A stretch of DNA of 58,416 nucleotides from a virus. Position 1 is the stretch's first letter, and each line of letters begins with the position of its first letter. Position numbers and translations under genes: made by a program. Shown here one piece after another: positions 7,979-49,110 of this stretch. The notes below the pieces were generated by a model. It was given only the letters and a program-made list of their open reading frames with translations, was not told the DNA's origin and did no database searches. The stretch is taken from positions 1 through 58,416 of the IMG/VR virus record IMGVR_UViG_3300009130_000037. One strand, 5' to 3'.

Positions 7979-7989
7979 AAATATAAACA

Positions 7990-9638: not shown

Positions 9639-9644
9639 AAGTCT

Positions 9645-9652
9645 TATCTTTG
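9645..9652 (+). promoter_or_regulatory. Candidate Bacteroidota -7 promoter element
   Basis: TATCTTTG matches the Bacteroidota -7 consensus TAnnTTTG exactly. It lies in the 45-bp gap before the ring-like gene at 9684, about 31 bases upstream of its ATG. The nearest upstream TTG (9631-9633) is only 11 bases away, shorter than the usual spacing, so the -33 half is weak. Confidence 0.4.
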
Positions 9653-9683
9653 TTAGATTATATAATATAGTAAAAACAAGTTA

Positions 9684-10448
9684 ATGGTATATAAGTATGT
9701 TAGTATTTACAACGTAATAGAGAAACTCTATAGAGATTATGATCACCAAGAGGAATTAGATGTATGGGATGTTATTGAATGGGGAGCTGAAGCTCTTGAG
9801 TTCATAGGCGCGGGACAACAATATGAACGTCGTGTAGCAGAATTAAAGGTAGAGAACTGTATAGCAGTACTTCCTTGTAACTACCATAGTCAACCTATTC
9901 CTTCATACTTAGGATCACCATTAAACTTAGCAACAGGAGGATTCGCTCCATTAGATAATGGGACAGCTGATAGTACAGCTAACCATATTAACGGAGTAGA
10001 AGTAAGTGACGATAACTTCCCTCTGTCTGGACAATCAACCGGAACAACACAAACTCTTAACGAGACGTTTTATATCAAGGACGGAGTCTTCGTTACATCA
10101 ATAAACTCAGGAACAGTTATACTTGATTACAAAGCTATAGCTACAGATAAAGAAGGATTCCCTAAGATTCCAGATCTTATATCATACAGAACAGCAGTAG
10201 CTCGTTACATTCAAATGAAACTAGATCATATCGATTGGAGACGTAAAAGAATAGACGTAAGTGTATATAGAGAAAGTAAAACAGAATGGCAAGAGTTCTG
10301 TCTACAAGCTAGAGCTGCAGCTAACATGCCTAATCTTGCTTATGCAGAAGCTATTAAGAATCAATGGGTTAAATTAAAACCTAATCAAAATTCAGCTGAC
10401 TCGTTCTATAATACAGGAACAATCAGAGAAATGAGAAAACTTAAATAA
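9684..10448 (+). CDS. Tail ring / stabilisation-like virion protein
   Basis: The protein has 254 residues. The N-terminal helix set SIYNVIEKLYRDY...LDVWDVIEWGAEALEFIGA and the following VENCIAVLPCNY strand are typical of a conserved crAss-like structural protein beneath the portal. A variable beta insertion (residues 75-140) is followed by GTVILDYKAIATDKEGFPKI and a helical C-terminal domain. It overlaps the next gene as TAATG at 10446-10450, coupling it to the muzzle-like protein. The specific ring assignment is inferred. Confidence 0.6.
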   Translation: MVYKYVSIYNVIEKLYRDYDHQEELDVWDVIEWGAEALEFIGAGQQYERRVAELKVENCIAVLPCNYHSQPIPSYLGSPLNLATGGFAPLDNGTADSTANHINGVEVSDDNFPLSGQSTGTTQTLNETFYIKDGVFVTSINSGTVILDYKAIATDKEGFPKIPDLISYRTAVARYIQMKLDHIDWRRKRIDVSVYRESKTEWQEFCLQARAAANMPNLAYAEAIKNQWVKLKPNQNSADSFYNTGTIREMRKLK

Positions 10449-25100: not shown

Positions 25101-28100
25101 TTCTTCACATTTCCAGGACTAAATGAAATAGCTCAGATAGTTGAGAAAGAAGATGGTACTAGATTAATAACAAATAGAGCAGAAGTTGAAGCTGCAGTTA
25201 TTAATCACGTTAAAGCATTAGCAGAGAATACTGTTACATCATGGAAAGAATCTGGTATCGTATCAGATAATTCTCTTATGATGGATAAGTCATATATAAT
25301 GGCAGCAAGGTCTGCACTACGTAAGCCTAACAATAATAAGCTTGCTTTATATGCTGCTTTAGATCTAGAGATTAACTACATCATAGCAAACGCTAATGTG
25401 TTACAGTTAATTACAGGGGACCCTGCACTTCACTTTAAGAAGAATGTTGAGACTACTTTAATAGATGTACAAAAGAGATTAGCAAAAGATATAGCTCCAG
25501 GATTAGATGGAAACTTTAAGAACGATAAGTATAAGACTGTATACTTAAATGATAAAGAAACAAACTCTCAACACCTAGAACAATATAAAACTGTATTAGG
25601 AGAGAAAGCATCTGCTTATACTGGTATGGAAGGAACTGATGCTCAAGAGTATACAACATTACAAGAACATTTAGATGTAATGAATGCTTATGGGAAGTTA
25701 TCTCCTGAACAATATAAGCGTATGAGTAATGCTAAAACTCTTTCAGCAGAAGATCTTAAAGTTGTATTACAACCTATGAAGCCAGTATTTGTAGGTAACG
25801 ATGTTATACCATCAAGTGATGTTAACAAGATATCATATATCAAATCATCTAGTTATCCATTAATCCCTCAATTAACTAAGGGTCTAGAAATAGATAAGTT
25901 AAGAAAGGCAATGGAGTCTGAAGATATAGCAAGAGCTGCATATGTATCAGCTGCTAAACTAGGAACAACTAAGAGAGTAGATATATGGGATGGAGATAGC
26001 TTAGATTCTAAGTTCTCTTTAAAAGATAAAGCAGTTACATTAAGTAGAACTGGTTTCCGTATTCAACAAGAGGTACCATATAAAGAATCTAAAGATAAGA
26101 TTCTAACAGTATCTCAAATGAACAAACTTCTATTTGAGGGAATCCTGGGTATTGAAGGTATGCCAGCATTAAAGACAAGAAAAGAAGAAATAAGAATGTC
26201 TTTATTCGAATCAGGGAAGAAAGAATTATTCACTAAACTTGGAGCTGACTCTAACGGGAAGTTCAAAGATCTTTCTAAAGTTAAGAAAGCACTAGAGCAA
26301 GAAGCTAAGTCTAGAGGATATTCTATAAACGATATTCAATCATTAGAATTAACAGAAGATAAGAAGTCATTCAGAATACCATTAGCTTTTAATGCTAGTG
26401 CTAAGAAGTTTGAATCTCTGTTATTATCTATGGTAACTAACACGATACTCAAACAAAAGATGCCTGGTAAATCTTATGTTCAAGGGTCTTCAGCAGGGTT
26501 CTTAACTGGAACAACTTCTTCTAAAGAATGGAGTGAGTTGACTGAGTCAGATCTAGGGGGAATAATCTGGACAGGAGATGTGAATATGGACAAAGGATTA
26601 CAATTCGTAAGAAAGGAAGGCGGAAAGGTTCGAGGAGCGCAACTCCTTGTTCCTTTTTACTTCAGAGATGCCGATGGTAAAATGTTAAATATGAAAGATT
26701 ATACTACAACAGTAGATGGTAAAACTTTCATAGATGATAATAAGATTGATCCTGCATTACGTAACTTAATTGGAGCGCGTATTCCTAACCAAGGACACTC
26801 TTCAATGTTACCTATTGAGATAGTAGGGTATGTACCTGAATCTATGGGAGACCTTATTATAGTACCGGATGAGATTACTAAACAGATGGGATCTGATTTT
26901 GATGTTGATAAGTTATTTACTTACCACTATAACTATAATGTAGGAGAAGATGGTTCTTTAACTAAAATACCAACAGATGAAACAGTAGCAGGATTACAAA
27001 ATGAATACATTGATATTCACTGGAATGTATTAACTACTCCAGAAGTATTACCTAGAATATTAGCTCCATTAGATCAAACAGGAGCTCACTCTGTAGCAGG
27101 GGAAGCTGACCTTATTAATGATATAAGAACACAAAATGCTACTCAGCATTCTTTCTTATATAGAAAGGAACAACAAAAAGGATTTATTCAGAATCGTTCT
27201 GGAAAGTCTGGAGTTGCTATCTTCTCATTAGCTTCTACATTTAATGCTACAATACAAGATAAAGATCTTAAATATGGTAAATACTTTAAGGGAGAGTATG
27301 TTCCTTTATATATTAATTTTAAAGGATTAAAACTAACTAACCTTAGTGGTAAGGGAAAGAACCCAATAGCTGATAAAGCTGCTGTTATTTCTGATATGCA
27401 ATCAGCTGCGGTTGATAATGCGAAAGAACAAAGATTAGATAAACTTAATCTTAACGATCATACATTTGCAGCTGCAACTGCTTTAGCTCAACTGGAGACT
27501 GAAGAAGGAAAGAACGTTGATATCCAATACATATCAAGACTTCTTTCTCAGCAAGTTATCCAGGACTACGTTAAAGAACTAGAAGCTTTAAATGATACTA
27601 CTATAGAGGAGTTTGTTTCTGATAAGAAAGAAGAAGCATTCTTCAGAGCATCTAAAAAGTATAGAGCATTAGTTGGAGAAAGTAAAGAGAACTATGATAA
27701 GTATGTAAAAGAAGCTCCATTATTATCTCCTAGTCTTATGTTACAAATGATTAAGGATGAAGGTAATAAAGATGCTTACTGGGCAGGTTTACAGTTAAAG
27801 GCTTTAAAAGTATTTAGAGAACTTGATGATATAGGAGCTCAGATGACACAGATTAAAAGTGCAATCAATGCTGACTCTCAAGGAGCCGGTAAAGATCTAT
27901 TAGCTGTGTCTGATAAAGTACAACGTATAGCAGAACTACATAAGTTACCTTCAGTCCAAGGTGCCACAGAGCTTTTAAATACAGAGAAGGAAGTAGGGAA
28001 AGCAGTTTCTTTAGGACCTATACTAGCTAACAATGTATATGCACCTTTATTCCCATATGATAGTTATTCATTCAAAGAACTTAAAAGATCTATTGCATCT

Positions 28101-31100
28101 CTTACAGGTAGAGAAGCTTTAACTGTAGAGAAACAAGATGAACTATTCAATCACTTAAGAGGGTTTATGTACTCTACTGATGGTATGTTCTCTGAGACAG
28201 AGACTGCAATTGAAAGAAATAGATTATTAATCGATACTAAAGACAACAAGTCATTAGCTACTCGTGTAGAGGAAGCTCAGCAATCATGGGGTAAGAATAA
28301 CTTCTTATTACAAAGACTTGCAGCTAGACATCCAGAGAAGAAAGGATCATTTAGTCTAGTAACATATATTGCATCTGCAGGCGCTCGTCTAGATGAATCA
28401 GAAGCTATTAAGTCATTCGTTGATATGATGATATCAGAAGACCCAGTTCAAAATGAATTAGCAGTTGACTTAGTTACATACTCATACTTAACAGCTGCAT
28501 CTCAAGGAGCTACTAACTTTATGAAGTTCATTCCAACTACTTACCTTAAGTCTAAGGGAGTAGGAGAGAAACTTAATGGTATAGAATGGGAAGCAGGTAT
28601 TGGATTAGATATCTTTAGAAGACAGTACTTCCAACATAACCCTAGTGTAACACCTAAGGCACCTGAAGATATTCCAGCTACTGAAGGATTTATAGTACCT
28701 GCAGTTTCAGATGAGATGGAACAGAAGTATAACAATATGTTAATCGAAATGGAGATATACCCAGGTGAGTTCATCACGGGTTATCCACCATTCGTACATA
28801 TTAGAAACACAGATACTAACTCTTATAACTTATATGAGTTAACTCCTAACGTAGATTCTTCTTTTACTTATAATAGAATAAGTACACTAGGAGGAGAGAG
28901 AGGATTAATGGAATATAATAGAAGTTCTTCATTAGCTACTTCTCTATTAGAAAGTAATAGACCTAAAGTACAAAAGCAATTGGAATCTAATGTTCCATCT
29001 GCCTCATATGAAGAAGGAATAGATAACCCAGAAGCTAATACTAACTTGTTAAAGAAGTATAACCTTAAGACCGGAGATGGTAAAGGGCCTGTAGTTAGAG
29101 CACTGTATACTATTATGGGAGAGTCTACTAACACAGGACATAGATTAGTAGCTGAGATAATGGCCAAGAATGCTGATAACTTACCTACACTTACATTCTC
29201 TTCTAAGAATGAGAAAGGTAAAGGATACTTCAGACAAGGAGGAAGAATATTAAACGTTAATGTATCTAAAATAGATAGTGCAAATGAATTTGAGAAAGTA
29301 TTCTTACATGAATTATTACATGGTTATACTTCTCATATAGTTAAAGCACCAGGTAAAGCGGTAGCTCAAGGACATAAAAATCCTTTAAACGCGGCGCAAG
29401 ATAGAGCATTAAAATCTATTGAGGCCCTGCAGAAAAAAGCAATCACTAGCCTTAATAAGGAAGATAAAGAAGGCTTTAAAGCATTCGCTAAGAAATATAG
29501 AGCTTGGGAGAAAGACACATCTAAAGGACTAGATGCTACGACAACAGAGTTTGATAAGTTTTATGGTCTTATTAAGACAGAGGAGTTTATCACATTAACA
29601 ATGACAAATGAAAACTTCCAGAAGTTCTTAAACAATATTCCATTCACAGGAGAGACTACTTTATTAGATAGATTTGTAGAGATTATATCTAAGTTATTTA
29701 AAGCTATCTCTCAACAATTAGGAGTAGAAGTAAATGATAACAGTATATTACCTCATGCTATCAAAGAGATCACTAATATGATAGAGAGTACAACGTCATT
29801 AAGTGAAGGACAAGGAAATGACTATAGTATATTTAATAACAATGAGTATGCAGCTAAGCAAGCATTAACTACTACTAAACACCTAAGAGCAGAATTTGGT
29901 TTAATCAATAGCTCTGGGTTGAATAAGAAGTTAACTTTTGAACAAGCTTCAAAGAAAGCTAAAGCATTAAATACTACTAATAAGAAATTCCAATCTAAAT
30001 ATGGAAGTACTTATGAAGCTAAGTCTACTAAGATACCAGGGGAGCCAGGAGATAGTAAGACATATTGGAATGTAACATTTACACCTAAATCTTCTCAAGT
30101 AGATTACTCTATAGAGACAGGAAAGAAAACTGATCCTTCTATCGATACTCTTATTAAAAGAATCGAATCTAGAATAATTAGTTATAAGCATGCTATGAGT
30201 GATGCTAAAGCTGACAAGTCTGTATATAAAGATAAGATAGAAGTTCTAGAAAGACAGATAGAGAAGTTAGAAGCTACTAACAACCTTAAATCTGTAGAGC
30301 TTATCGCTAAGTCTCACTTAGACTGGGTAGATCAAATCTTAGATAAAAAGAAAATATCACCATCTGAAATAAGAGAGGCTGATACGGCTATTGCTGTATG
30401 GCAAGATCTTAAACGTATCTTCCAAGAGGAGTATGAAGAGGGTGGAAAGTTTAAAGAGACTATAGCATCTATTACTAATAGAGCTGATGACTTACAATTA
30501 AGATGGGGATCTGTAGCTAAGCAAGCTATGATCGTAGAAGCTAATAAGAATAGTACTAGAGAAGTTAAACTTAAGCACTTAGAGTTAATGAAAGACATTA
30601 GCATGAGTCCTAGTTTATTATTAGACTTATCTAGTTATGATAATGAGTTCACTCAATCTTTAGATAACATCTTAAAGAGATCAGCAAGAGATACTAACTA
30701 TGAGTTTAACGAATGGTCTAAGACTATTAACACAGCTATAGAAGAGTTCCAAGCTACTGATGAATATAAGAAGAACAAGTTCGAAAAGTTATTACAGAAA
30801 GATAAAGATGGTAACTGGACAGGACATTTAACTATCCGTTATTCTCAAGATCTATACGATGAAAGAGCTAAGAGACAAAGAAAACTTAATAACTCTAAGA
30901 AGACTAAGAAAGACTTCAAAGATTATTACAGATGGAAGAAAGTAAATGAAGTAGCTATTGATAGTAGATTATTATTCTCTGAGGATGGAAAACTACAAAG
31001 TACTCCTAAAGCTGGTGAACATAAAGCTGCTTTAGAGAAAGAGTTTGGTGTAGAAAGAACTCAGGAATTAATAGATAGAGCTCAAGAGAAATTCCAAAAC

Positions 31101-33338
31101 TATCTTGATGATAAAGAAGCATTCATCTTAGAGTTAGAGAACAGAAAGGAAATCAACCCAGAGTATACAGAAAAGAATTATGATAATGATTTAAGATCTT
31201 GGGTTATACGTAACTCCCCTAAATCTTATTTAGCATCTTACGAAGGGTCTAACATAAGTAGTGAAGCTAAGGGATGGGAATACGTTGTTACAGTTCCTAA
31301 GAAGGTATATGATAGTGGTCGTAAAACTCCATGGTATGACAGTAACTTTGAAGAGATAAACAACAACCCTGAATTGAAAAAGTTCTATGACTTCTTTAGA
31401 GATACTTTATCTCATATGATGGCAGAACTTCCTACGTATGAAACTTATAACTTACAAGCTAACTTCTTACCGGTTATGAAGAAGAACTTAGCAGAGGCAT
31501 TTGGTAAGGGAGATATGAAAGGAGCACTAGCTAACTTGAATAGTAGCTTAGTAGATGAACTTACATCAGGAGAGTCTCAAATCTCAGCTGATAGAGATAT
31601 TCATACTGGAAGAGTTAACAAACGTATCCCGGTAGGATTCACTAAAGAGACTAGTGCTATTAATGAAAGAACTAAAGATCTAGGTAAAATGTTAGAAGCA
31701 TTTACTATGATGTCTTTAAACTATAAACATAAAGCTAAAGTAGAAGATACAGTATTACTTATGCAAAGAGTTATAAATGAAGCTGTTGAGCAACAAGTTA
31801 ACTCTAAGAAAGAAGCTGTAACTGATGCTAAAGGAAACTTATACCAAATCAAAGATGGTTTAACTAATCTTAAGAAGGTTGTTTCTCATGCAGTAGATGC
31901 TCAGATCTATAATGACAAACGTGAAGAGGGAACTCCAACTGGTGTTTTATTAAGTGAGCAAGGTATTAAAGCGTCTATTAAAGCAACCTCTTTAAATAAG
32001 AAGATTAAGAAGTACAACAGAGAGTTAGCTATGGGTAGAATGACTGATGAAGCTCACTCTATTATAACTAAGCCATTACAAGAAGAGCTATCTAAACTAG
32101 GAGGTAGAAATGTAACTAACGTTGATATAGCTGATGCTACAATGAAGATTACTCAAATGAAAGGAATGGGATATAATATATTTGCCTCTGCGAATAACAT
32201 GACTTTCGGACTTATATCTAATATATTACAAGCAGCAGGAGGAGAAGACTTTACATTAAAAGAATCTATGCAAGCTTATAAGATGATGTTATCTTCTACT
32301 AGTAAAAGTTTAGGATACAGTAACAATGCAGGTAAGAAGATAGCTGCTCTTATGGAGAAGTTTGATGTCTTATTCGAAGTTAATGAGGCTGCATACAATG
32401 GATCAGATAGACGTAAGTCTGTTGGATTATCTAAGTTCAATCCTTATGAACTACAAAGAAGATCAGAGTACTTTGTACAAGGACAGAATATGGTAGCTAG
32501 AATGCTTAACGAGAAAGTTAAAACATTAGATGGCCAAGAAACTAGTTTATTCGAAGCATTCGATGTAAACGGTAAATGGAGAGCTGATGTATATGGAGAA
32601 CACAAAGGATGGGATGGAGACATCAGTACTGAAGGAGACTTAAAAGAGTTTAAGAAATTCCAGGACAGATTAATAGCTATCAATAAGGTTGCACACGGTA
32701 ACTACGATCCTGCATCATTCCCAATGGCTAAGCGTTATATCTTTGGTAGATTCGCATTACAATTTAGATCATGGTTAGCAGAATCATGGGAAAGAAGAAT
32801 GGGAGATGAGAAGTATAATGAGCAGTTAGGAAGAAACGTTAAAGGATTCTATAGATCTATAGGAGAGAACTCTAAGGTATTCCTTAAGTTAGCTCTTATG
32901 CAGAAAGATGGATTGACATCATTGTCTCCAGTAGATCAAGCTAACCTTAAGAAAGGAATGGTAGAGATGATTGTTATCTTAGGTACTATGGCAGCAGGTC
33001 TTATGGTTAAGAGTTTAGGAGATGACGATGATGATGACAAGATGGTAACTAACTTACTATTGAATCAAATCTATAGACTTGAATCAGATATGACTTTCTA
33101 CTTAAGTCCTGGGTCTTTCAATAGAATATTATCTAGTCCTATCCCTGCAATTAGAACTTATCTAGATGCAGAGAAAGCTATCTCGAGTACTATGTCTTAT
33201 ATGGTACAGTCAGTTGACTTAGACGGTCGTAAGAAGATGTCTAATGAAGATGTGTTTAACAAGTGGGCTAAAGTATTCCCATTCATTAATCAAACTGTTA
33301 AATTTAAAACACAGTCTGAGAAAGTTTTTAATAATTAA
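19107..33338 (+). CDS. Giant virion polyprotein: RNA polymerase plus zincin domain
   Basis: The protein has 4743 residues in one uninterrupted frame. Residues 170-220 hold a hydrophobic, Gly/Ala-rich region. A charged coiled coil and a Pro/Glu-rich linker cover about 750-850, and a second acidic linker lies near 1320-1355. The RNA polymerase core is visible. KQKMPGKSYVQGSS (near 2450) fits the first barrel. ARIPNQGHSSMLPIEIVGY followed by KQMGSDFDVDKLF places the metal-binding DFDVD at 2597-2601, equivalent to the DFDID/DFDGD motif of crAss-like virion and multisubunit polymerases. A zincin motif HELLHGYTSH lies at 3401-3410. Long helical regions follow, and a hydrophobic segment (VEMIVILGTMAAGLMV, about 4618-4633) precedes a run of Asp. 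In relatives the packaged enzyme transcribes early genes after ejection. The strand ends with a terminator. Confidence 0.85.
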   Translation: MSKKSNSVSIEDVFKNTKRTRLDTATNEIQEDKVPSLDDVFIKTKKKTVLDVPTFGSELDYNLDYMEGVKPEQAKYATQLRGKRQSAGRQAVNVAGRILPKIGLSLVENAGYALDLESHWKTITGEGGAYSNALTQFADRGVEAIDDWAPIYRENPNEVFDLGDPAWWFQHGEGLGVSISSFALTGAGLGSTFSKGAKYLGKALKAGANTQKALNAGAQILTTGELTYIESAMGGAEVRKNIIAEGLQNMPTDLTEAESILYQQKLVSDANEGAALAVRLNTIVNAPLNFGAAGVLMKDLKTTKRLNSKFSKNSGESTKDWATRLKTDPSTRELSENVFRTTLSEMGKESLEEIVNEVAVGVGEHKGKKLQGLLDDKEKRGGYLGAVLETLGKDETALSAILGAVGGGGQHFVTSKMGNNKENKQLKQDIHNKQLDFLVKKVDQFQLAQDNLVAAAEEGNIAKYYTAQEDLFKAQVFDSFVNGGQEQLTSLYSEIAELSPEEAEAKGHVTDPNHADYYKNKANAKIAEINTLSKDYENIMARYNENDPEANLASYGEHIFAMHLEKKQLENNLERNLKILSDQKAIHKKNMSLRGTELGLEDAQQMATAIKAGEEALAEIDSRIAEVSKLDARTTSGKQILADKYGMPPKGTSRKAHAINKIKQAKKVQEAKVSANAIKLKKDKAEFIKNEDGTEESWIKAMKQTSAERDALVNTLKQIDASRAQLEVMDQTYEDFTSKEGRDAHVKESQKTNEKRRQEKETEDKKQRDTESVAKETAKREAVKEKKREQERAKAEQAKPTEPSTEAPTEGPLTEEEIEAISLVSPEEAEAQRAAEGGTPLLTEEEVDIIEAEETVPVEAKEDGDVENVSDTQSSKATEQEPSRAITVDKVIEAGTTFAYLSKEYGDAEGVKKSTTNEKNESLHKPLESSKEFQVGDEVTLEIDKTATWTDKDGQTRSYNDFVSPDGSVDIANVPIGIKKGNEVVAHVRTQDWLNQKDESGTYSNIATSEDSEHPLYDNGPKQIEINQRIREAVVSTGSISVKITNKSNGHISKNVDGKALLSAAMPNIKTFTVVKDGEFYVNKDEIYSNLSLVNSTEFQDNLNDYSGIVFAELPTPVRGKALMVPLSIPTLSTDQVDTIYNAIVSHYKDNKEVSTKVFEEAGFDIRTNTGLLSLLQQITHTVDEKESDFEERVSKEGPLSARHLNVSTKTGLISYAKHNKGIHTISSLTDLVNQAEDFKEFLSEKLFSVRLSEINGTDEVSEVTISNDNQVTTKLNASYNEYIKSKLSTNLISTPINETEDSYFDQPVIQFDTNFLETSPIEKTEEKLEEKEQEESKPSDNISEDDINDIFGFDSYIDYTLGTDDSVTDYTLDEDKKSLIRESLEGFLVVDSESGIPYNTYKQTQVIDSIIELTVKGLQNKQPLQESIEAAKKVFEQRSTMLARIEDNFSTIDPAIKTKLNLTTVDDAAELKDEFDKVLRNWDEFKDHASAKLAKIFGVKETIEDSQDAQAIEDSLSAYENLESMLEKISFDDGATFQTNHKDTASARFKLFLALQENTSRNFLNLKSFIPFDTVYDDLQMLLAGTEPNYDAMVAKLALEGAGKPYIPTLISRLENQSEQIKNEFVVAFSKQYNPYITVLWARNRKDGSYQLQPIDTNRNSVVKRIEAYWLNNQKTSDIVKTVGGELTINEVKAEEFKGKVEAMAASKPTAEGIQELLSSIGIDMPIEAINYLGTNSKRLTGMDFSQHFTSGIFNRMAKALTMKNKNTEVESKLDLNNPLTGTNKEGSSIKILATLTAQFNPSIYSNSHRDSEGKTIYSYSLNSHLSHTMRRLLENEGNNGLTNGLANLSFTKNSLWLRQIQKDSKFRNTFKISYLDGINKRYSNQKGVKRKNQSDREMEMQSLALFQNQNQGEAGGRKVSHFVYPTISDKTTTPIITAIRHNVEVLMEDDLSYTLGGGTRKEILNIVRGEMNRIENYKAPSKDNAIKGYDNGGATKFFTFPGLNEIAQIVEKEDGTRLITNRAEVEAAVINHVKALAENTVTSWKESGIVSDNSLMMDKSYIMAARSALRKPNNNKLALYAALDLEINYIIANANVLQLITGDPALHFKKNVETTLIDVQKRLAKDIAPGLDGNFKNDKYKTVYLNDKETNSQHLEQYKTVLGEKASAYTGMEGTDAQEYTTLQEHLDVMNAYGKLSPEQYKRMSNAKTLSAEDLKVVLQPMKPVFVGNDVIPSSDVNKISYIKSSSYPLIPQLTKGLEIDKLRKAMESEDIARAAYVSAAKLGTTKRVDIWDGDSLDSKFSLKDKAVTLSRTGFRIQQEVPYKESKDKILTVSQMNKLLFEGILGIEGMPALKTRKEEIRMSLFESGKKELFTKLGADSNGKFKDLSKVKKALEQEAKSRGYSINDIQSLELTEDKKSFRIPLAFNASAKKFESLLLSMVTNTILKQKMPGKSYVQGSSAGFLTGTTSSKEWSELTESDLGGIIWTGDVNMDKGLQFVRKEGGKVRGAQLLVPFYFRDADGKMLNMKDYTTTVDGKTFIDDNKIDPALRNLIGARIPNQGHSSMLPIEIVGYVPESMGDLIIVPDEITKQMGSDFDVDKLFTYHYNYNVGEDGSLTKIPTDETVAGLQNEYIDIHWNVLTTPEVLPRILAPLDQTGAHSVAGEADLINDIRTQNATQHSFLYRKEQQKGFIQNRSGKSGVAIFSLASTFNATIQDKDLKYGKYFKGEYVPLYINFKGLKLTNLSGKGKNPIADKAAVISDMQSAAVDNAKEQRLDKLNLNDHTFAAATALAQLETEEGKNVDIQYISRLLSQQVIQDYVKELEALNDTTIEEFVSDKKEEAFFRASKKYRALVGESKENYDKYVKEAPLLSPSLMLQMIKDEGNKDAYWAGLQLKALKVFRELDDIGAQMTQIKSAINADSQGAGKDLLAVSDKVQRIAELHKLPSVQGATELLNTEKEVGKAVSLGPILANNVYAPLFPYDSYSFKELKRSIASLTGREALTVEKQDELFNHLRGFMYSTDGMFSETETAIERNRLLIDTKDNKSLATRVEEAQQSWGKNNFLLQRLAARHPEKKGSFSLVTYIASAGARLDESEAIKSFVDMMISEDPVQNELAVDLVTYSYLTAASQGATNFMKFIPTTYLKSKGVGEKLNGIEWEAGIGLDIFRRQYFQHNPSVTPKAPEDIPATEGFIVPAVSDEMEQKYNNMLIEMEIYPGEFITGYPPFVHIRNTDTNSYNLYELTPNVDSSFTYNRISTLGGERGLMEYNRSSSLATSLLESNRPKVQKQLESNVPSASYEEGIDNPEANTNLLKKYNLKTGDGKGPVVRALYTIMGESTNTGHRLVAEIMAKNADNLPTLTFSSKNEKGKGYFRQGGRILNVNVSKIDSANEFEKVFLHELLHGYTSHIVKAPGKAVAQGHKNPLNAAQDRALKSIEALQKKAITSLNKEDKEGFKAFAKKYRAWEKDTSKGLDATTTEFDKFYGLIKTEEFITLTMTNENFQKFLNNIPFTGETTLLDRFVEIISKLFKAISQQLGVEVNDNSILPHAIKEITNMIESTTSLSEGQGNDYSIFNNNEYAAKQALTTTKHLRAEFGLINSSGLNKKLTFEQASKKAKALNTTNKKFQSKYGSTYEAKSTKIPGEPGDSKTYWNVTFTPKSSQVDYSIETGKKTDPSIDTLIKRIESRIISYKHAMSDAKADKSVYKDKIEVLERQIEKLEATNNLKSVELIAKSHLDWVDQILDKKKISPSEIREADTAIAVWQDLKRIFQEEYEEGGKFKETIASITNRADDLQLRWGSVAKQAMIVEANKNSTREVKLKHLELMKDISMSPSLLLDLSSYDNEFTQSLDNILKRSARDTNYEFNEWSKTINTAIEEFQATDEYKKNKFEKLLQKDKDGNWTGHLTIRYSQDLYDERAKRQRKLNNSKKTKKDFKDYYRWKKVNEVAIDSRLLFSEDGKLQSTPKAGEHKAALEKEFGVERTQELIDRAQEKFQNYLDDKEAFILELENRKEINPEYTEKNYDNDLRSWVIRNSPKSYLASYEGSNISSEAKGWEYVVTVPKKVYDSGRKTPWYDSNFEEINNNPELKKFYDFFRDTLSHMMAELPTYETYNLQANFLPVMKKNLAEAFGKGDMKGALANLNSSLVDELTSGESQISADRDIHTGRVNKRIPVGFTKETSAINERTKDLGKMLEAFTMMSLNYKHKAKVEDTVLLMQRVINEAVEQQVNSKKEAVTDAKGNLYQIKDGLTNLKKVVSHAVDAQIYNDKREEGTPTGVLLSEQGIKASIKATSLNKKIKKYNRELAMGRMTDEAHSIITKPLQEELSKLGGRNVTNVDIADATMKITQMKGMGYNIFASANNMTFGLISNILQAAGGEDFTLKESMQAYKMMLSSTSKSLGYSNNAGKKIAALMEKFDVLFEVNEAAYNGSDRRKSVGLSKFNPYELQRRSEYFVQGQNMVARMLNEKVKTLDGQETSLFEAFDVNGKWRADVYGEHKGWDGDISTEGDLKEFKKFQDRLIAINKVAHGNYDPASFPMAKRYIFGRFALQFRSWLAESWERRMGDEKYNEQLGRNVKGFYRSIGENSKVFLKLALMQKDGLTSLSPVDQANLKKGMVEMIVILGTMAAGLMVKSLGDDDDDDKMVTNLLLNQIYRLESDMTFYLSPGSFNRILSSPIPAIRTYLDAEKAISSTMSYMVQSVDLDGRKKMSNEDVFNKWAKVFPFINQTVKFKTQSEKVFNN

Positions 33339-33976: not shown

Positions 33977-35026
33977 CTATTTATCTAATCTAAATCCAAC
34001 ACATACAGGGAATCGAGGAATACCTCCATCTGTAAACTCAAAGAACCTAAGTTCTGCAGTTCGTCCTATATAGTCAGCTTTATTAATTAACATCTCTTCA
34101 CGTTCATCGTGAGAGAATTTCATTCCTGTTTTGAACCTTTGTCCTTTATACTCACACACACATACAGCATGTGTAGGTCTTTTTTCTGAAGGTTCTATAT
34201 CTACTACTTCAGCAGCAAGATCTAAGAAGTCTTTATATTTCAGTAAGTTTTCACTACGTCCATTAAACTTATATCCAGCATCTCCCCATCTTACGATAGT
34301 TCCTTCATATCCGTCCTTTAAGAACTGTATATGATACTTTTTAATATCTTCTTCACTATCAACTACATAAGTAGGCACTACACAGATATTTTCCATATCT
34401 TTAAAGTGCATCTGTAATATAATGTATCTTTCACTGAAAGGTAAGTTCTCAAGAGCTACATCATAAACATGAAACTTAACTTGTTCAGACTCTCCCTTTC
34501 TGTACTTCTTAATCAATCTCATATTCTCCTGAAAAGTATATCCATGAGCATACAATTCTCCATCAATAGTATCAGCAAGTCCAGAAGTATCTAAAGCATC
34601 TTGTATATGATCCATAGTAGTGATAAGCTTATTCTTTCTAGATACTAAAGGAGTTCTAATCCCTCCGTGTGCTCTCATACCATCTAACTTAGGTTGTACA
34701 AAGCAAGGGAATGTAATCTTCTTTATATGATCATCATAGTTTTTAGCCAACATAGGAAGTTTAATCTCTCCCTCTTCAGCCTCCTCTATAGTTTTAAAGT
34801 ATCCTTCAGATAACTTCTCTGTAACTTTACGTTCAGCTGTTAAATAAGCTTGTTGACTAGGGGTAGTCTCATTACTCTTCCCTATATTCTTTCCTTTACA
34901 TTCACTCTCATGAGTGACTAATGCTCCTCCTAATACTCCAGATTCTCTAATTACTTTATTATTCCTTGTAGAAATATGAAGTACTCTAATTTTACCCTTC
35001 GTATCTTTCTTATATAATCTAACCAT
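33977..35026 (-). CDS. ATP-dependent DNA ligase
   Basis: The protein has 349 residues. An N-terminal region of about 90 residues (with KNIGKSNETTPSQQAYLTAE) precedes the nucleotidyltransferase domain, as in several phage ligases. Motif I is KLDGMR with the adenylated lysine Lys113. Motif III contains DGE (155-157), motif IV is EGTIVR (241-246), and motif V is KYK (263-265). An OB-fold domain follows (VVDIEPSEKRPTHAVCVCEY, ending RFPVCVGFR). The enzyme seals nicks in duplex DNA using ATP and would join Okazaki fragments made by the polymerase and primase of this phage. It overlaps the upstream glucosaminidase gene by 8 bases. Confidence 0.92.
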   Translation of the reverse strand: MVRLYKKDTKGKIRVLHISTRNNKVIRESGVLGGALVTHESECKGKNIGKSNETTPSQQAYLTAERKVTEKLSEGYFKTIEEAEEGEIKLPMLAKNYDDHIKKITFPCFVQPKLDGMRAHGGIRTPLVSRKNKLITTMDHIQDALDTSGLADTIDGELYAHGYTFQENMRLIKKYRKGESEQVKFHVYDVALENLPFSERYIILQMHFKDMENICVVPTYVVDSEEDIKKYHIQFLKDGYEGTIVRWGDAGYKFNGRSENLLKYKDFLDLAAEVVDIEPSEKRPTHAVCVCEYKGQRFKTGMKFSHDEREEMLINKADYIGRTAELRFFEFTDGGIPRFPVCVGFRLDK

Positions 35027-38073: not shown

Positions 38074-38112
38074 AATGTTTTCGTTTTTAAATCCGTACTA
38101 AAATATAACAAT

Positions 38113-38709: not shown

Positions 38710-40563
38710 TTACGGTAACTCGCAAGCTCCGCCTGCGCATGCTACTTGTTGATTTAAATTAGTTTGATCCTCAACTTCTATTACTTTAGTTAAGTCAACC
38801 TCTTTAAGTACTTCAAATAGCTTATCATATTTCTGTTTACTTATAGTCTCGAAAGGAGCTTGTGTATAAGTACCACCATCATAAGGTAATACACTCATAC
38901 CATTATAGTTATCTCTCTTTCTCCACATCCAACTTCCTACATATCCCCATTCATTATCTCTAATGTTACAGGTAGCAGAAACATTGTTACAATTCTCTCC
39001 ATCTCTATGTCCTTCTCTTACCCATTCGATATTAAATCTATCTACTCTCTCTAAGAACTCCTTAGCAGTTTCCTTATTTCTAAGAATAGCTCCTTTTGGA
39101 GCAGCTTGTGGAAACTCTAATACATAGTCTCCAGGACGTCTTTCGAGAGGTTGAATGATTTCAGGGTGATGTTCTAATAGATAAGGAACAATAGCTTCAT
39201 TACCACTTAGTTCCATTCTTCTTATATAGTAAGCATCATGCCAAGCATGTATACCTGAACTAGATCCTACTACGCATGAAGTAGAACCAGAAGGTTTAAC
39301 TGTAGTTACTCTGGCAGCCGGGTTAATACCAATCAACCTTGCTATTTGTTCATTAACTACTTTAGCTCTATCAGCTGCAGCCTTAAGATCTAACTTAAGT
39401 ACTTTACCTGATGCTATACCTGTCATTCCTACTCCTATTAAAGCATCTTCCTCTGTAGTCTGTTGCCATATAGATCTTAGATAATGAAAGTCTGTTATAC
39501 CAGCCTGTAGTGTACCAAAGTATGCAGCCTGTCCTATCAGTTCTTCTAATTCTTCTTGAGAATCTATACCTGAAACATTTACTTCAGTAAGATTACAGAA
39601 TTGGAATGGTTTAAGAGCTATCTCACAACAAGGATTAGTTCCCCAATCTTTGTTATTAGTCCAATATACACCCGGTTCTCCTGAACCTGATGCTTTAATC
39701 ATCTTCCATAGGTCTTTGAACTCATCTTCTGTTACTTCCTCTCTAGGTAATACAGCAGAGTTATTAGCTCTACCACGTTGGCCGTTAGTTTCCCACCATG
39801 TTCCACTCTTACAAGTAATCATATCTACATCAAATCTATCAAACAAACTAATCATAGCTGCTCTTCTGATTCCTCCCGCCAATACAGCATCAGCTATATG
39901 ACATTGAATATCATGACAGTCTATAGGACGTAACTTATGTCCATCTTCTATTCTATCTAATATAAGTTCAATCTCCATAAGACATCTACGTAAAGGCTCT
40001 GGGCCTGGTGCTTTTCCACCTGCAGTTACTAGTCTTTCTCCTTTAGCTCTAATAGCTGAGAAGTCATATCTAGGTTTAAACTTTCTTAATCCAAAGTAAG
40101 CTTTCATAAGATACTTAACAGCATCAGCCCATCCTTCTATAGAATCCTCTATTACAAACTTTTGATCTTTTTCTGGTTTAGATATAGCAGGTAAACGCTC
40201 TACATGATGTGATTGTACACTATACCCAACTCCAGTACCTCCTAATAGTAAGAACATAGTCTCACTAAATCCTCTATAATCATCTAAAGGAAGGAAAGCA
40301 CAGTTATATACTCGGGACTCATTCTTTTCAATGGCCGCACCAGCAAACTGCATTCCTCTCATAGAAGGCAATATCTTTCTTTCTTTTATTACGTTAATAT
40401 TCTTTCGTGTCGTCATTTTTAACTCTGGATACCTTTCTATCATCATATCCTCATATCTAAGGCATACTTCTTCAAAGGTCTCTCTTCTCTGTACAGTGCT
40501 ATTATGCCTAGCATATTTATTCCATACAGTTACATTAGATAAGATCTCGTTACTTTTATTCAT
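38710..40563 (-). CDS. nrdJ: Class II (adenosylcobalamin-dependent) ribonucleotide reductase, monomeric type
   Basis: The protein has 617 residues. TNPCCEIALKPFQFCNLTE supplies the thiyl cysteine Cys312, Glu314 (C-x-E) and Cys323 eleven residues on, the spacing of Cys408/Glu410/Cys419 in the Lactobacillus leichmannii enzyme. Cys88 (VYNCAF) is the probable partner. The tail ACAGGACELP gives the C-x4-C redox pair Cys609/Cys614, again as in that enzyme. It needs coenzyme B12 and no partner subunit, and reduces ribonucleotides (triphosphates in the reference enzyme) to feed phage DNA synthesis with or without oxygen. It is shorter than the 739-residue reference. An attenuator-like leader precedes it and a hairpin follows it. 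Confidence 0.92.
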   Translation of the reverse strand: MNKSNEILSNVTVWNKYARHNSTVQRRETFEEVCLRYEDMMIERYPELKMTTRKNINVIKERKILPSMRGMQFAGAAIEKNESRVYNCAFLPLDDYRGFSETMFLLLGGTGVGYSVQSHHVERLPAISKPEKDQKFVIEDSIEGWADAVKYLMKAYFGLRKFKPRYDFSAIRAKGERLVTAGGKAPGPEPLRRCLMEIELILDRIEDGHKLRPIDCHDIQCHIADAVLAGGIRRAAMISLFDRFDVDMITCKSGTWWETNGQRGRANNSAVLPREEVTEDEFKDLWKMIKASGSGEPGVYWTNNKDWGTNPCCEIALKPFQFCNLTEVNVSGIDSQEELEELIGQAAYFGTLQAGITDFHYLRSIWQQTTEEDALIGVGMTGIASGKVLKLDLKAAADRAKVVNEQIARLIGINPAARVTTVKPSGSTSCVVGSSSGIHAWHDAYYIRRMELSGNEAIVPYLLEHHPEIIQPLERRPGDYVLEFPQAAPKGAILRNKETAKEFLERVDRFNIEWVREGHRDGENCNNVSATCNIRDNEWGYVGSWMWRKRDNYNGMSVLPYDGGTYTQAPFETISKQKYDKLFEVLKEVDLTKVIEVEDQTNLNQQVACAGGACELP

Positions 40564-40727: not shown

Positions 40728-41633
40728 TTAATACTTTATAATACCTCGTTTGAAATAAGGGGTATCTTTATACTTTATGATATATAGTCCTGAAGTAGAT
40801 GGTAGTTTGGTTCCTAAAAACCTTCCATCTATAGTCCATATACCTTCTATGTCTTTCTTATTATAAGTAAGACAGTTAATATACTTAGTACTTAACTCAG
40901 TAACAGTCCCGTTAAAGTCTGTTTGTGTTAACTTATAATAACCTCTATGAATGATTTCATCATAAAAGTCATATGTTAGAAAGGTGTTATTATTACCATT
41001 CCCAGGGTATTCCTTATAGAAATTCCAATCATAACCATTATAACTATGATATATAGTGAAGTAATCATTATTTACTTCTGAAGCTGTACTCCACGTAAAT
41101 CCATTACAGTTTACATCAAATGATATAAATTCCACAGGTAATACTACATTATTAAAATAATAAGGACAGTAATCTGTAAACCCTATACATCCCGGGCCTC
41201 CTCCCCATGCACTTGATGTCATACACCACGTATATTGTACTCCTGGAGTTAGTCCTGTAAAGTTTAATCCTGTGCCTATTAAAGTACAGCTTGCATCGTA
41301 TAGTTCAAAAGGCCCATGTGATATATTAGCACACCCTGTAGTAGAGTATCCTGAGTTCAATGTCACTGAACTACTTGTAGGAGTGAAAGTCCAACATACA
41401 GTCGGATTAGTTCCATAAGCAGCAGGATAACAATAACCATTAGCATCCAACCAAGCATGACTTGGAGGAGTAACAGTAGTTACAGTATTAGTTCCATCAG
41501 GAGACGCACAAGACCCTGCTTTAGGGGTAAGAAGTTTATGCTTACCATATTCTTGTAACGTACTTTCAGATTTAGTCTGAGCTATCATACCTATTGATAA
41601 GGTAAGAGATAGCATTAACAATAATTTTTTCAT
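40728..41633 (-). CDS. Secreted protein with type IX secretion-like C-terminus
   Basis: The protein has 301 residues. MKKLLLMLSLTLSIGMIAQ is a clear Sec signal peptide. Residues 40-160 form a Cys-rich, Tyr/Thr/Gly-rich domain (WTFTPTSSSVTLNSGYSTTG; FTGLTPGVQYTWCM). Residues 165-250 (LPVEFISFDVNCNGFTWSTA, SEVNNDYFTIYHS, GYYKLTQTDFNGT) and the end (IDGRFLGTKLPSTSGLYIIK, then FKRGIIKY) are very like flavobacterial extracellular proteins with a type A T9SS sorting domain. Export to the host surface or medium is the likely outcome. The gene looks acquired from a host. It is preceded by a 30-residue membrane peptide and followed by the reductase leader. Confidence 0.75.
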   Translation of the reverse strand: MKKLLLMLSLTLSIGMIAQTKSESTLQEYGKHKLLTPKAGSCASPDGTNTVTTVTPPSHAWLDANGYCYPAAYGTNPTVCWTFTPTSSSVTLNSGYSTTGCANISHGPFELYDASCTLIGTGLNFTGLTPGVQYTWCMTSSAWGGGPGCIGFTDYCPYYFNNVVLPVEFISFDVNCNGFTWSTASEVNNDYFTIYHSYNGYDWNFYKEYPGNGNNNTFLTYDFYDEIIHRGYYKLTQTDFNGTVTELSTKYINCLTYNKKDIEGIWTIDGRFLGTKLPSTSGLYIIKYKDTPYFKRGIIKY

Positions 41634-41645
41634 TTCTTTAAAGTT

Positions 41646-41738
41646 TTAAATCATAGCCGATGGAGGTTCCCCTGTATTATCGTTATCTATAATAACAGAG
41701 CCTACTAATAAAACTACTATTATTATAATTATTAACAT
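41646..41738 (-). CDS. 30-residue single-TM micropeptide
   Basis: ATG at 41738 lies four bases after the stop of the 41743 gene, and TAA at 41646-41648 lies 12 bases before the secreted-protein ATG. The product starts MLIIIIIVVLLVGSVII and ends DNDNTGEPPSAMI: one hydrophobic helix and a short polar tail. Tight spacing on both sides and a perfect hydrophobic segment support a real gene. Role unknown; it could help membrane targeting or be a small toxin-like peptide. Confidence 0.5.
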   Translation of the reverse strand: MLIIIIIVVLLVGSVIIDNDNTGEPPSAMI

Positions 41739-41742
41739 TGTT

Positions 41743-45204: not shown

Positions 45205-46374
45205 TTATAAAGACTTGATTTCTTTTAACCCAGCTTCTATATCTGCAGTTAATTCACCAAAGTTCTCTATAACTTCTGCTCTATCTTCTTCCCATTTAGT
45301 ATCAGACTGAGCTGCATACTGAGAAGAGTGATAAATAGATCCATTTACACCAGAGAAAGCATCTAATACGAAATACTCTAATACTCTTATTGCTCCTGCG
45401 TCATCACAAGGAACAGCTCCAATATTCATTGGATCTACTAAGATGTTATGAGTTTCAGTATTACTATCTTGATACCCACGTATATAGTCTAATCCTCCAC
45501 AATGTAGTCCTTTTACACAAGAAATTTGATCATCAGTATTAACCATTGACCAACTTTTTAATCTATGTGCATGTCCTACTTTGATAAAGTGACCTTCTAC
45601 ATCTCCACAGAAGAATGCATCTCCGCTAGTTCCCATCATTGCAGGTTGGAATAAACGCTCTTCATTAGTAAGTTCTGTATAAGTAATTAAACCTGTATCA
45701 GGATCAATAGTTTTAGCTTGTCTACGGTCTACTTGCTTAGCTTCTTTATTCTCATCTAATTCATACTTAGTATGGATTTCAGTAGATACTTTAAAAGTAC
45801 GTAATAGTCCTTCTACAGTAATTCCTACTTGATAAGTAGTAGCTCTTGCTACAGCAACCTCTTCGCTTACTCCCTCTTCATCCATTAGTTGTGCAACTAA
45901 TTCATGGTTAGTGTAAGTAGAGTTGATATAGTTAAACATACGTGTTGAGAAATCTTCTCCTAAACCTAATCCTGTTTTAGTTCTTAATACAGGGTTTCTT
46001 AACCATCTAGTCCACATCTTAATTAAAGGTGTGAAATCAATCTTCTTATCCATAGAATCAAGTATTCTATCTACTAATGCTTGAGGCATTGCGATAGAGG
46101 ACACTTGTTTTCCTACTTTAAGATGATAGGTTCCAGTAGCTTTATTAACGTGAATATTAGGACACTCACTTTCGATTGTTTCCTTATAGTCCACTACTAA
46201 TAACTCAGTAAATTTTTCAACAATTTTAGCATACTTAGCAGGAGTATCTACTGTATCAGCTTTTGCTTGTAATTTAAGCATTGCTTCGTATTTCTCTTCT
46301 GTATAAGGAATACCAAATTGTTCGTTGTTGACAGACCCACAAATAGAGTCTCCCATTAAATTGATTGTAATCAT
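45205..46374 (-). CDS. rIIB: RIIB-like protein
   Basis: The protein has 389 residues. Two blocks match T4 RIIB closely as I recall it. LVDRILDSMDK (from residue 100) corresponds to LVDRILDSMEK, followed by a similar helix and R-N-P. The C-terminal domain has CVKGLHCGGLDYIRG (from 286) and a VDPMNIGAVPCDDAGAIRV stretch, equivalent to the T4 GLH-x-x-x-x-YIR and the following strand. RIIA and RIIB act at the host membrane in T4, opposing lambda-Rex-type exclusion and affecting lysis timing. It overlaps the 46371 gene as ATGA and lies two genes from rIIA. Confidence 0.85.
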   Translation of the reverse strand: MITINLMGDSICGSVNNEQFGIPYTEEKYEAMLKLQAKADTVDTPAKYAKIVEKFTELLVVDYKETIESECPNIHVNKATGTYHLKVGKQVSSIAMPQALVDRILDSMDKKIDFTPLIKMWTRWLRNPVLRTKTGLGLGEDFSTRMFNYINSTYTNHELVAQLMDEEGVSEEVAVARATTYQVGITVEGLLRTFKVSTEIHTKYELDENKEAKQVDRRQAKTIDPDTGLITYTELTNEERLFQPAMMGTSGDAFFCGDVEGHFIKVGHAHRLKSWSMVNTDDQISCVKGLHCGGLDYIRGYQDSNTETHNILVDPMNIGAVPCDDAGAIRVLEYFVLDAFSGVNGSIYHSSQYAAQSDTKWEEDRAEVIENFGELTADIEAGLKEIKSL

Positions 46375-46937
46375 GCTTCTTCTAATGTTTGATTAGCATT
46401 ATTTAATAATTCTTCAGGTACTTCAAAGTCACCTAGGCCTTTAGCCTGTAAGATTTCTCTTATTTCTTGTTCTAATTCTATAGTAATATCACTAAAATTT
46501 GGATTATACAAAGGTACGATAAAATTAAAGATATTCTTCACTGATTCGCTATATTCTATCAACATATCTAGCTGATTAAGTATTTGAATATCAACACAAT
46601 GTGCCTCTGCAACATCTTTATTTCCAAAGATCTCTTTAGCTCTTTTTGAGATGATTCCTGCTTCAGAATTATCTTCATTTTCAGCTACTAATAACTGAAA
46701 TTCTAACATCTTATCTAGATACTTAAGCCAATCATCAAAATTAGTTTCACTATACCCATGAGCACTTCTAAATTTACTTTGTATATTAGACCAATTATCT
46801 TCTTTATATTTCATTATAGAACTATAAATATCATATAAATCAGAATGAATACCTTTATATCCTTTAAAGAACTCTAATTGTTTACAATGTGTATTTATAA
46901 TACGAGCTGTATTCCATCTAATTAAATGATTATCCAT
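46371..46937 (-). CDS. Hypothetical protein inserted between rIIA and rIIB
   Basis: I use the ATG at 46937, which overlaps the rIIA stop (ATGGATAA), giving 188 residues; the 47009 ATG would overlap rIIA by 80 bases. The protein is helical and acidic (CKQLEFFKGYKGIHSDLYD, EIFGNKDVAEAHCVDIQILN, EIREILQAKGLGDFEVPEEL) with no membrane span. Its fixed coupling to rIIA upstream and rIIB downstream suggests a third component of an rII-like complex. Family unknown. Confidence 0.55.
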   Translation of the reverse strand: MDNHLIRWNTARIINTHCKQLEFFKGYKGIHSDLYDIYSSIMKYKEDNWSNIQSKFRSAHGYSETNFDDWLKYLDKMLEFQLLVAENEDNSEAGIISKRAKEIFGNKDVAEAHCVDIQILNQLDMLIEYSESVKNIFNFIVPLYNPNFSDITIELEQEIREILQAKGLGDFEVPEELLNNANQTLEEA

Positions 46938-49110
46938 CGATATCCGTTGTTTGTTCGAAGAAATTATTAACGTGGATGCAGTTTGCTCGTCCCCTAAAAT
47001 ATCTTTCATTAGTTTTATTTATTTTAATTATTTTAATCTCGTCATTATAAAAACGATAATTGTACTTATCATCGGGATTCCCCCATTGTTTATCTAATTG
47101 TGCTTGATCCCATTTATCTGGGTATTGAGCTCCTAATATCATTCCTAAGAAGTGAAGTCTTTCATCATCTTTATTACACCCATAATAAATAGTAGCTGTA
47201 TCTTCTTGAACATCAATTAGTTTAGTGTCTCTTTGTTTCCAAACAAAATGTTTAGGTTTCTTTTCATGAGAATATCCGATATTAGATTTAGGAGTTAAAG
47301 AATGAATAGGAATTTTAGCTTCTATCTTACGTCTTTCTTTCGCACTCATAGCGTACTTAATCCCCTCTTCTTCCTGTTCTTCGAATACTTTTCCGAAATC
47401 TTCAGGTACTTCTATATCTTCATAACATAGTACGTCTTTAGAATCCTCAATAGCTTTCCATAGTACTGGAATACTAGCTTTAAGATCATTAAACATCTTA
47501 TCCGATAGGTTTCTAGAATCTACTTCATTCTCTTTATACTCTTTTACTAACTCTTCATCAGACATTAATTCAACAGTAAGAAAGTTACCAGCTATAGAGT
47601 GGATATAAGCATCCTTCTTAGCACTAGTTTTACTAGTCTTTAAGTATACTCTCTCATGAGAGAACTCACTCCATGCACCAAAAGATGTTCTTTTGATAGA
47701 AGTTTGGTTCTTCTTATGATCATATTGAGACGAATTAAATCTAGTTTTAAATCCTCTAAACATTCTACTAGGGTTTGAATACCTGATAGAAGTTCCAGCA
47801 AACTTAGGTCTAATACCTTCTAAATCAACAACACGACTTAACTCACTCATTATACTATCTTGCCCAGTGTGCATCAACACATCTTTACAAGTAGTTAACC
47901 AACGTAAGAAATCTGTTTCTAATAATTTATCTTGTACTAATTCTGTAGCCTCTTCAACTGCATTCTCAAATCGTTTTTTAATAAAATCTCTAGTATGCTC
48001 TGACCAAACTACCGTTTCTCTACTAGGAGTAACCTCTACTCCCTCTTGTAGTACCGTTTCCTGTCCGGTTACTTCATCACGAATTACAGAACGTATAGGA
48101 CACTTAATCCCTACATTACCATAAAGCTGTTCCATTTCAAGCTCTGGAAAATCAATATACCCATAACATACACCAGTTCCCTCTCCTTTTGTATCGTCTC
48201 CTTTGACAATAACAACGTGGGGTTTACTAAACTGATTGTTTTTAGATACTATTAATCTACTAGAACTATATAATACTTCTGCAGCTGTATCTATACTACG
48301 TACATGACCATCTTCTTCGATGATATTAAATTCTACATTACCAAAATATAATAACTGAGCTTTTACAGCCTGTTCATATTTAGATCGGTGATGCCTCTTT
48401 GTCGGTACAATAATTTCCGTATAATTCTGTTCATTTGTTTTTTCAAAATATACTTGTGTACCATTAGTAAAAGTAATAAAATCATTCTTCTCGTTTGTAT
48501 CTAAGTTAAACTTACCTACAGTGGAATCAATCTTATAAGAATAACAATTAAACTTATACTTCTTCCCATTGTGGACAGTAATAACTGTGTAATAATCACA
48601 CCTTGTAGATAATGCCACTTTATTACCAAACCCAAATGCTCCTAATGAGCCTTTAGAGTTTCGTTTAGTAGAATAACCTATCTGAAAGTAACCTTCTAAT
48701 CTAGCTTCTCCTATTCCGATACCAAAATCCTTAACGGAAAATGTATCACAATATCCTACACCTTCATTCTGTGTGTAAGTAAGCTCTACGTTCGTCTTAG
48801 TCTGATCTAAATGTTTAAGATCATAATAAGAAGGATCCCAATTGGAATCAGCGTACTTAGCGCCTTCTCTTTGAATAAAATGATCTTCAGGAGTTGTTTG
48901 TCCTGATAAGATAGACACTGCTATCTCTTTTTCTCTTTGTGAATCAACTGCATTAGCTGTTAATTCTCTAACTGTACTCTCTTCAGGTTTAGTGTACTGG
49001 GTTATTTGAATAGTATCTAATACTAATCCCCTAGCCCCTTCATTAATCTCTCGTTTAAATCCGGTATTACCATCCCCGTGAGATGATATTTCAACCTCTT
49101 GTATAGCCAT
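46930..49110 (-). CDS. rIIA: RIIA-like GHKL ATPase
   Basis: The protein has 726 residues. The GHKL/Bergerat fold is visible at the N-terminus: STVRELTANAVDS (45-57, N box with E49 and N53), VKDFGIGIG (126-134, G1 box) and GAFGFGNKVALS (157-168, G2 box). This N-terminal ATPase with a long C-terminal region matches T4 RIIA. The mid and C-terminal parts are alpha/beta without other motifs. Together with RIIB it probably protects the infected cell membrane against exclusion systems. It overlaps small barrel-like genes upstream and is followed by the inserted 188-residue gene. Confidence 0.85.
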   Translation of the reverse strand: MAIQEVEISSHGDGNTGFKREINEGARGLVLDTIQITQYTKPEESTVRELTANAVDSQREKEIAVSILSGQTTPEDHFIQREGAKYADSNWDPSYYDLKHLDQTKTNVELTYTQNEGVGYCDTFSVKDFGIGIGEARLEGYFQIGYSTKRNSKGSLGAFGFGNKVALSTRCDYYTVITVHNGKKYKFNCYSYKIDSTVGKFNLDTNEKNDFITFTNGTQVYFEKTNEQNYTEIIVPTKRHHRSKYEQAVKAQLLYFGNVEFNIIEEDGHVRSIDTAAEVLYSSSRLIVSKNNQFSKPHVVIVKGDDTKGEGTGVCYGYIDFPELEMEQLYGNVGIKCPIRSVIRDEVTGQETVLQEGVEVTPSRETVVWSEHTRDFIKKRFENAVEEATELVQDKLLETDFLRWLTTCKDVLMHTGQDSIMSELSRVVDLEGIRPKFAGTSIRYSNPSRMFRGFKTRFNSSQYDHKKNQTSIKRTSFGAWSEFSHERVYLKTSKTSAKKDAYIHSIAGNFLTVELMSDEELVKEYKENEVDSRNLSDKMFNDLKASIPVLWKAIEDSKDVLCYEDIEVPEDFGKVFEEQEEEGIKYAMSAKERRKIEAKIPIHSLTPKSNIGYSHEKKPKHFVWKQRDTKLIDVQEDTATIYYGCNKDDERLHFLGMILGAQYPDKWDQAQLDKQWGNPDDKYNYRFYNDEIKIIKINKTNERYFRGRANCIHVNNFFEQTTDIDG

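Follow-up and report, generated by a model that had tools for sequence, protein, structure and literature searches.

We identified a gene in a crAss-like phage that probably encodes a cargo protein for export by the type IX secretion system (T9SS) of the host. The window, meaning the whole stretch of DNA that was analyzed, is a linear 58,416-bp IMG/VR record and an incomplete contig. Within it, the open reading frame (ORF) at 40728..41633 on the minus strand was confirmed with exactly the coordinates originally predicted and encodes a 301-aa predicted secreted phage protein with a short T9SS-type C-terminal domain (CTD).

The protein begins with a Sec-type signal peptide at residues 1 to 18 (41580..41633, minus strand; MKKLLLMLSLTLSIGMIAQ), assigned from the sequence and a hydropathy rule, with probable cleavage between MIA and Q. 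The signal peptide claimed in the original prediction is borne out as a Sec-like N terminus by the hydropathy rule only, a rule of thumb, not SignalP, that 3 of the 49 window ORFs of at least 100 aa pass. A cysteine-rich beta-sandwich domain that is kept in phage orthologs follows at residues 38 to 163 (41145..41522, minus strand), with eight cysteines between residues 42 and 156. Residues 165 to 259 (40857..41141, minus strand) form an FN3-like module of the pattern LPxE...WSTASE...YYKLTQTDFNG, typical of Bacteroidota T9SS cargo, which here reads LPVEFISF...WSTASEVNNDYFTI...YYKLTQTDFNG and has LPVEF at residues 165 to 169 and WSTASE at residues 181 to 186. The short CTD (residues 260 to 301; 40731..40856, minus strand) includes SGLYIIKY at residues 281 to 288 and ends in SGLYIIKYKDTPYFKRGIIKY. 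All three stretches that the original prediction had quoted from the protein were found in it. Just 5' of the gene, at about 41645-41740 on the minus strand, lies a 30-codon frame recognized by eye (MLIIIIIVVLLVGSVIIDNDNTGEPPSAMI), possibly a membrane microprotein.

No family in NCBIfam, Pfam, or PHROGs matched the 301-aa protein, even at E < 10. TIGR04183, the profile for type A CTDs, had no match to the protein at E < 10 or to the window in a genome-mode search; TIGR04131, the profile for type B CTDs, had none in the NCBIfam and Pfam searches at E < 10; and a PDB sequence search returned chance-level matches only. The original prediction had proposed a search with sorting-domain profiles such as TIGR04183 and had named a lack of matches as its refutation, and that profile gave zero matches. 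We do not regard this miss as decisive, because TIGR04183 models a 72-aa, seven-strand CTD and the tail of the window protein is a shortened one, of a kind that is functional in Prevotella intermedia (PMC11969387).

The resemblance to T9SS cargo came from a hidden Markov model (HMM) of 79 bacterial cargo modules, containing zero virus sequences. This bacterial-only HMM matched residues 169 to 266 of the protein with 99 bits (E = 4e-30), and the next window ORF had an E value of 0.25. As judged by these profile scores, the likeness of the module is beyond chance and specific to T9SS cargo. Together with the architecture of the protein and its relatives, the match gives good support to the T9SS cargo reading.

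Searching with tblastn, we found the module in four huge uncultured phages (L002 to L005; best E = 6e-9), in one of which (L003) the module protein passes TIGR04183. A search with an alignment of these four modules and that of the window detected the module in at least 259 viral contigs; on the bacterial side, it was present in no fewer than 551 stretches, and of the best 80 of these, nearly all had Bacteroidota titles. Scans of viral and genome contigs with single proteins, which used exact peptide patterns, had given zero matches because such patterns are too narrow; alignments were required. Eighty-four viral proteins carry a related module at their C-terminal end, and of the 78 viral module proteins whose 5' end is complete, 73 had a signal peptide-like start. 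In 20 of 49 module-carrying viral contigs we found a terminase belonging to a single Pfam family, which makes their assignment to viruses credible. A phage gene of this kind had been expected to be unusual. That expectation did not hold: the presence of the module in at least 259 viral contigs points to a widespread, little-studied phage habit and no oddity, and there are earlier examples in Cryophage (PMC7468147) and in BACON phages (PMC6949934).

End-to-end orthologs of the protein occur in other phage contigs, with identities in the N-terminal domain of 73% (L172), 61% (L033), 60% (L176), and 42% (L084). The genomic position of the gene differs between carriers. The L033 ortholog sits on a 353-kb contig and the L176 ortholog on an 83-kb contig, where a giant 4814-aa frame matches the RNA polymerase region of the window and an ORF just 3' of the cargo gene reads, by eye, as a terminase large subunit. 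The DNA ligase near the L084 ortholog is 56% identical to that of the window. On the strength of the L176 polymerase-like frame and terminase, the L084 ligase, and the L033 contig, we consider that members of the family occur both in crAss-like phages and in a group of jumbo phages. By eye, an RNA-ligase-like gene 3' of the L172 cargo gene (8823-11704) apparently has an intein-like segment and an endonuclease-like ORF inserted in it, and an RNA-ligase-like gene after the L033 cargo gene is uninterrupted.

Among 295 bacterial genomes of the class of G005, the N-terminal domain was found in only one, with a weak match (E = 4e-4). This bacterial relative (L177:961-2577) is a 538-aa protein that has the same N-terminal domain and module and a canonical TIGR04183 CTD scoring 35.4 bits (cutoff, 23), an architecture that connects the family in phages with genuine T9SS cargo. 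Its canonical CTD suggests that the tail was shortened in the phages. The family appears to be phage restricted, and both the family and its short-CTD form appear to be new.

In type A cargo (TIGR04183/Por_Secre_tail), of which L177 is an example, a signal peptide, an N-terminal domain, an LPxE FN3-like module, and a C-terminal signal follow one another in the same order as in the window protein; the module before the CTD is common in such cargo and not obligatory. Type A cargo is exported through SprA with the help of the PorV shuttle and is processed by PorU. The type A CTD, however, has about 72 aa and seven strands, whereas the window tail has about 42 aa and three to four short strands and no match to TIGR04183. 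The distance from LPxE to the end is 137 aa in the window protein and 166 to 200 aa in canonical bacterial cargo. A distance of 125 to 150 aa, here called a compact tail, was found in 68 of the 84 viral relatives, and the stretch absent from such tails corresponds to a large part of the classical seven-strand CTD. In an alignment of 25 compact tails from viral relatives (A2), two glycines are invariant, and a DG turn and a lysine near the C terminus are nearly so. With an HMM built from the tails of other phages, which included neither the window tail nor P. intermedia sequences, the window tail was the best of 348 window frames, a weak match (12.5 bits, E = 0.002; next, 0.94). Comparison with canonical CTDs was not significant, giving probabilities of 42% for the group and 3.6% for the window tail alone. 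In a tree of the modules, the window sequence lies outside the main phage compact clade, weakly placed on a long branch. The L176 ortholog (7896-8780) has a tail that ends early (ILYYDILGRIVDRKVSILYMDNK), without the motif D glycine and the basic end, and may have lost its sorting signal.

Short CTDs, for which cleavage and glycosylation were measured, have been described in P. intermedia, where they occupy about 40 to 55 aa at the C-terminal end, the distance from cleavage site to terminus being 40 to 51 aa, and have motif B and D glycines, GxY followed by Ile, a basic end, and three strands (PMC11969387). The window tail resembles them in its length, its B and D glycines, its GxY followed by Ile, and its basic end, the relevant motifs being a B-like IDGR (residues 268 to 271), a D-like GLYI (282 to 285), and a basic, E-like KRGIIKY (295 to 301). 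The key residues, assigned by eye from the description in that paper and not from its sequences, are G270-R271, G282-L-Y284-I285, and K295/R296/K300. The P. intermedia domains have been shown experimentally to be cleaved and glycosylated, whereas the window tail is a prediction. In HBP35, the targeting signal was mapped to the last 22 residues (PMC11285876). P. intermedia was called the sole species seen with short CTDs (PMC11969387), whereas we found similar tails in phages and in some Flavobacteriales.

The compact tail is not exclusive to phages, a possibility ruled out by L164, L166, and L167 and by 37 of the 80 genomes of one bacterial order. Short T9SS-type tails thus occur in Flavobacteriales-type bacteria (L164, L166, L167, and the order of G005); TIGR04183 gave zero matches to the two bacterial compact-tail proteins tested and to one phage compact-tail protein. 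Eight Bacteroidota genomes had 0 to 7 compact tails each, whereas their TIGR04183 matches numbered from 62 to at least 150 per genome. The raw contrast between compact tails in viruses (68 of 84) and bacteria (1 of 80) is inflated, because the genome scan required D[FYK]N, which many compact proteins lack. When both sides were restricted to D[FYK]N proteins, the ratio of compact to other tails was 16:6 in phages versus 1:78 in bacteria (Fisher p = 7e-13; related sequences are not independent). On this like-for-like basis, compact tails are enriched in phages. Across 49 phage contigs, with the protein that recruited each contig left out, canonical CTDs appear commoner than compact ones, and phages therefore use both.

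It is unlikely, in our judgment, that a cargo gene was captured from a host and that its tail has since degenerated, leaving a protein exported by Sec only, with a periplasmic or outer-membrane role (as an exclusion factor, for example) and without type IX secretion. Such decay would fit the missing TIGR04183 match, the short and divergent tail of the window protein, and the partial loss of the tail in the L176 ortholog. Unconstrained decay would, however, erase features such as a compact length kept by most of the viral relatives and the glycines and lysine shared by the aligned tails, and short CTDs of this size function in P. intermedia.

An AlphaFold2 model (input A5) had a mean pLDDT of 73.6 and contained a beta sandwich at about residues 78 to 161 and an FN3-like sandwich at residues 168 to 252. 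In the tail, strands were predicted at residues 262 to 267, 272 to 274 (three residues), 283 to 288, and 295 to 299; the mean pLDDT was 80 to 88 over residues 261 to 290 and fell below 50 over residues 295 to 301. Foldseek searches of the PDB gave generic multidomain beta-sandwich matches only (query TM-scores of ≤0.26), so function could not be read from the fold. The best matches to virus models included phage proteins named "Fn3-like," "CUB domain," and "Secretion system C-terminal sorting domain," and automatic annotation thus already labels some relatives. Among the weaker virus matches, all with low TM-scores, some were tail proteins.

The carrier, on the evidence of its gene matches, is a crAss-like phage (Crassvirales), presumably one of Bacteroidota. 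A 4743-aa ORF (19107..33338, plus strand) contains a crAss-like RNA polymerase core near residues 2084 to 2622 that matches 6vr4 (E = 2.6e-33), which we take to be the DNA-dependent RNA polymerase of the crAss-like phage phi14:2. A 1435-aa ORF (10448..14755, plus strand), which reads as the crAss-like "stabilization" virion structural protein (E values to 1e-75), matched 83 records, Cellulophaga baltica phages among them. The structural arm lies on the plus strand. The cargo gene sits in a minus-strand DNA-metabolism arm, together with a DNA ligase gene (33977..35026); the next gene downstream on the same strand encodes ribonucleotide reductase (RNR; 38710..40563), and rIIB-like (45205..46374) and rIIA-like (46930..49110) genes lie nearby, also on the minus strand. 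The lytic carrier assumed in the original prediction is plausible in that no integrase was found in the 58,416-bp fragment and rIIA- and rIIB-like genes are present, but the contig is incomplete. A search based on RNR retrieved an unrelated phage (L171), and one based on rIIA retrieved one 19-kb contig with a 100% identical rIIA that ends before the cargo locus.

Two other features of the fragment were recorded. A Glucosaminidase-domain protein at 35019-35453, with a signal- or lipoprotein-like N terminus from an internal ATG at 35429 (LVMWAGIASC), is probably a second exported phage protein and perhaps a lysis enzyme. A 48-bp hairpin-forming intergenic element at 38106-38153 folds better than shuffled sequences (z = −2.9) and is 96% identical to an unannotated site between DNA methyltransferase genes in the otherwise unrelated Polaribacter phage P12002L. 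One 19-bp arm of the element recurs exactly in 23 viral contigs; an attC-like site is one possibility, and a different mobile or regulatory element is another.

Virions of phages are known to contain FN3- and Ig-like domains. This, along with the low-scoring Foldseek matches to tail proteins, would fit a virion component, either an Ig-like/FN3-like decoration or a tail-associated adhesin, whose likeness to cargo arose by domain shuffling. We consider such a role highly improbable: the protein has a Sec signal peptide, its gene is opposite in strand to the structural arm and lies beside RNR and near the rII genes, and the likeness is specific to T9SS cargo. We give least credence to the idea of an ordinary gene recently acquired from the host, as cargo DNA or an assembly artifact, without a phage function; capture would be easy given the number of TIGR04183 matches per Bacteroidota genome, but this already disfavored reading is at odds with the orthologs that match along their whole length in other phage contigs (including one of 353 kb), set against a single bacterial genome of 295, and with the GC content of the gene, which agrees with that of the window (0.343).

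Phage genes for T9SS cargo have been described before. In Cryophage, type A sorting domains are carried on an endoglucanase, a GH39 protein, and a PA14 protein, and hijacking of the host system was proposed (Bellas et al. 2020, PMC7468147). Cryophage and the window phage are alike in encoding T9SS cargo; Cryophage is a different phage with its cargo in variable islands, whereas the window protein belongs to a small, conserved beta-sandwich family. A 2019 study on gut phages, crAss-like and related ones, described T9SS sorting-domain proteins in BACON-domain phages (PMC6949934). There, the T9SS-tagged genes lie near head genes, one is fused to a BACON domain, and the study tested no claim of export. 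The idea of phage T9SS cargo is therefore already known, and the literature that we searched contained zero reports of this cargo family or of phage proteins with a short CTD. Overall, the original interpretation is partly supported; the effects it proposed, namely blocked superinfection, changed gliding, or an action on neighboring cells, are candidates.

Returning to T9SS cargo as the preferred reading, we infer a course of events from the observed architecture, homology, phage-family conservation, and location outside the virion arm. The 301-aa protein would be made during infection and cross the inner membrane by Sec. It would then fold in the periplasm, where its conserved cysteines probably form disulfides, and its short CTD would be recognized by the host translocon and the PorV shuttle, as in type A cargo. 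After export, the mature beta-sandwich protein would either stay anchored to the surface of the infected cell or be released from it, and its cysteine-rich N-terminal domain would most likely alter the cell surface through binding or masking. What the phage would gain is the most inferential part: our guess, and a hesitant one, is that the protein excludes superinfection or masks a receptor. We rank this first among the possible benefits given its small size, the lack of a recognizable catalytic domain, and a conserved cysteine-rich domain resembling a binding module.

More speculatively still, Bacteroidota phages, both crAss-like and jumbo, might keep their own sets of short-CTD T9SS effectors, phage-restricted families included, and remodel the surface of infected cells through the rotary secretion machine of the host. 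Host cargo might even face competition from the short CTD for PorV, with a shutdown of host surface proteins or gliding as the result. Because the sorting tail is short, standard annotation (TIGR04183) misses many such proteins; a short-tail profile would reveal the whole set, and the phage families offer small natural test proteins for the minimal T9SS signal. Secreted effectors with a role beyond the infected cell are seldom attributed to phages. If such proteins are exported as predicted, phages infecting a bacterial phylum that ranks among the most abundant would decorate infected cells by means of the type IX machine of their hosts.
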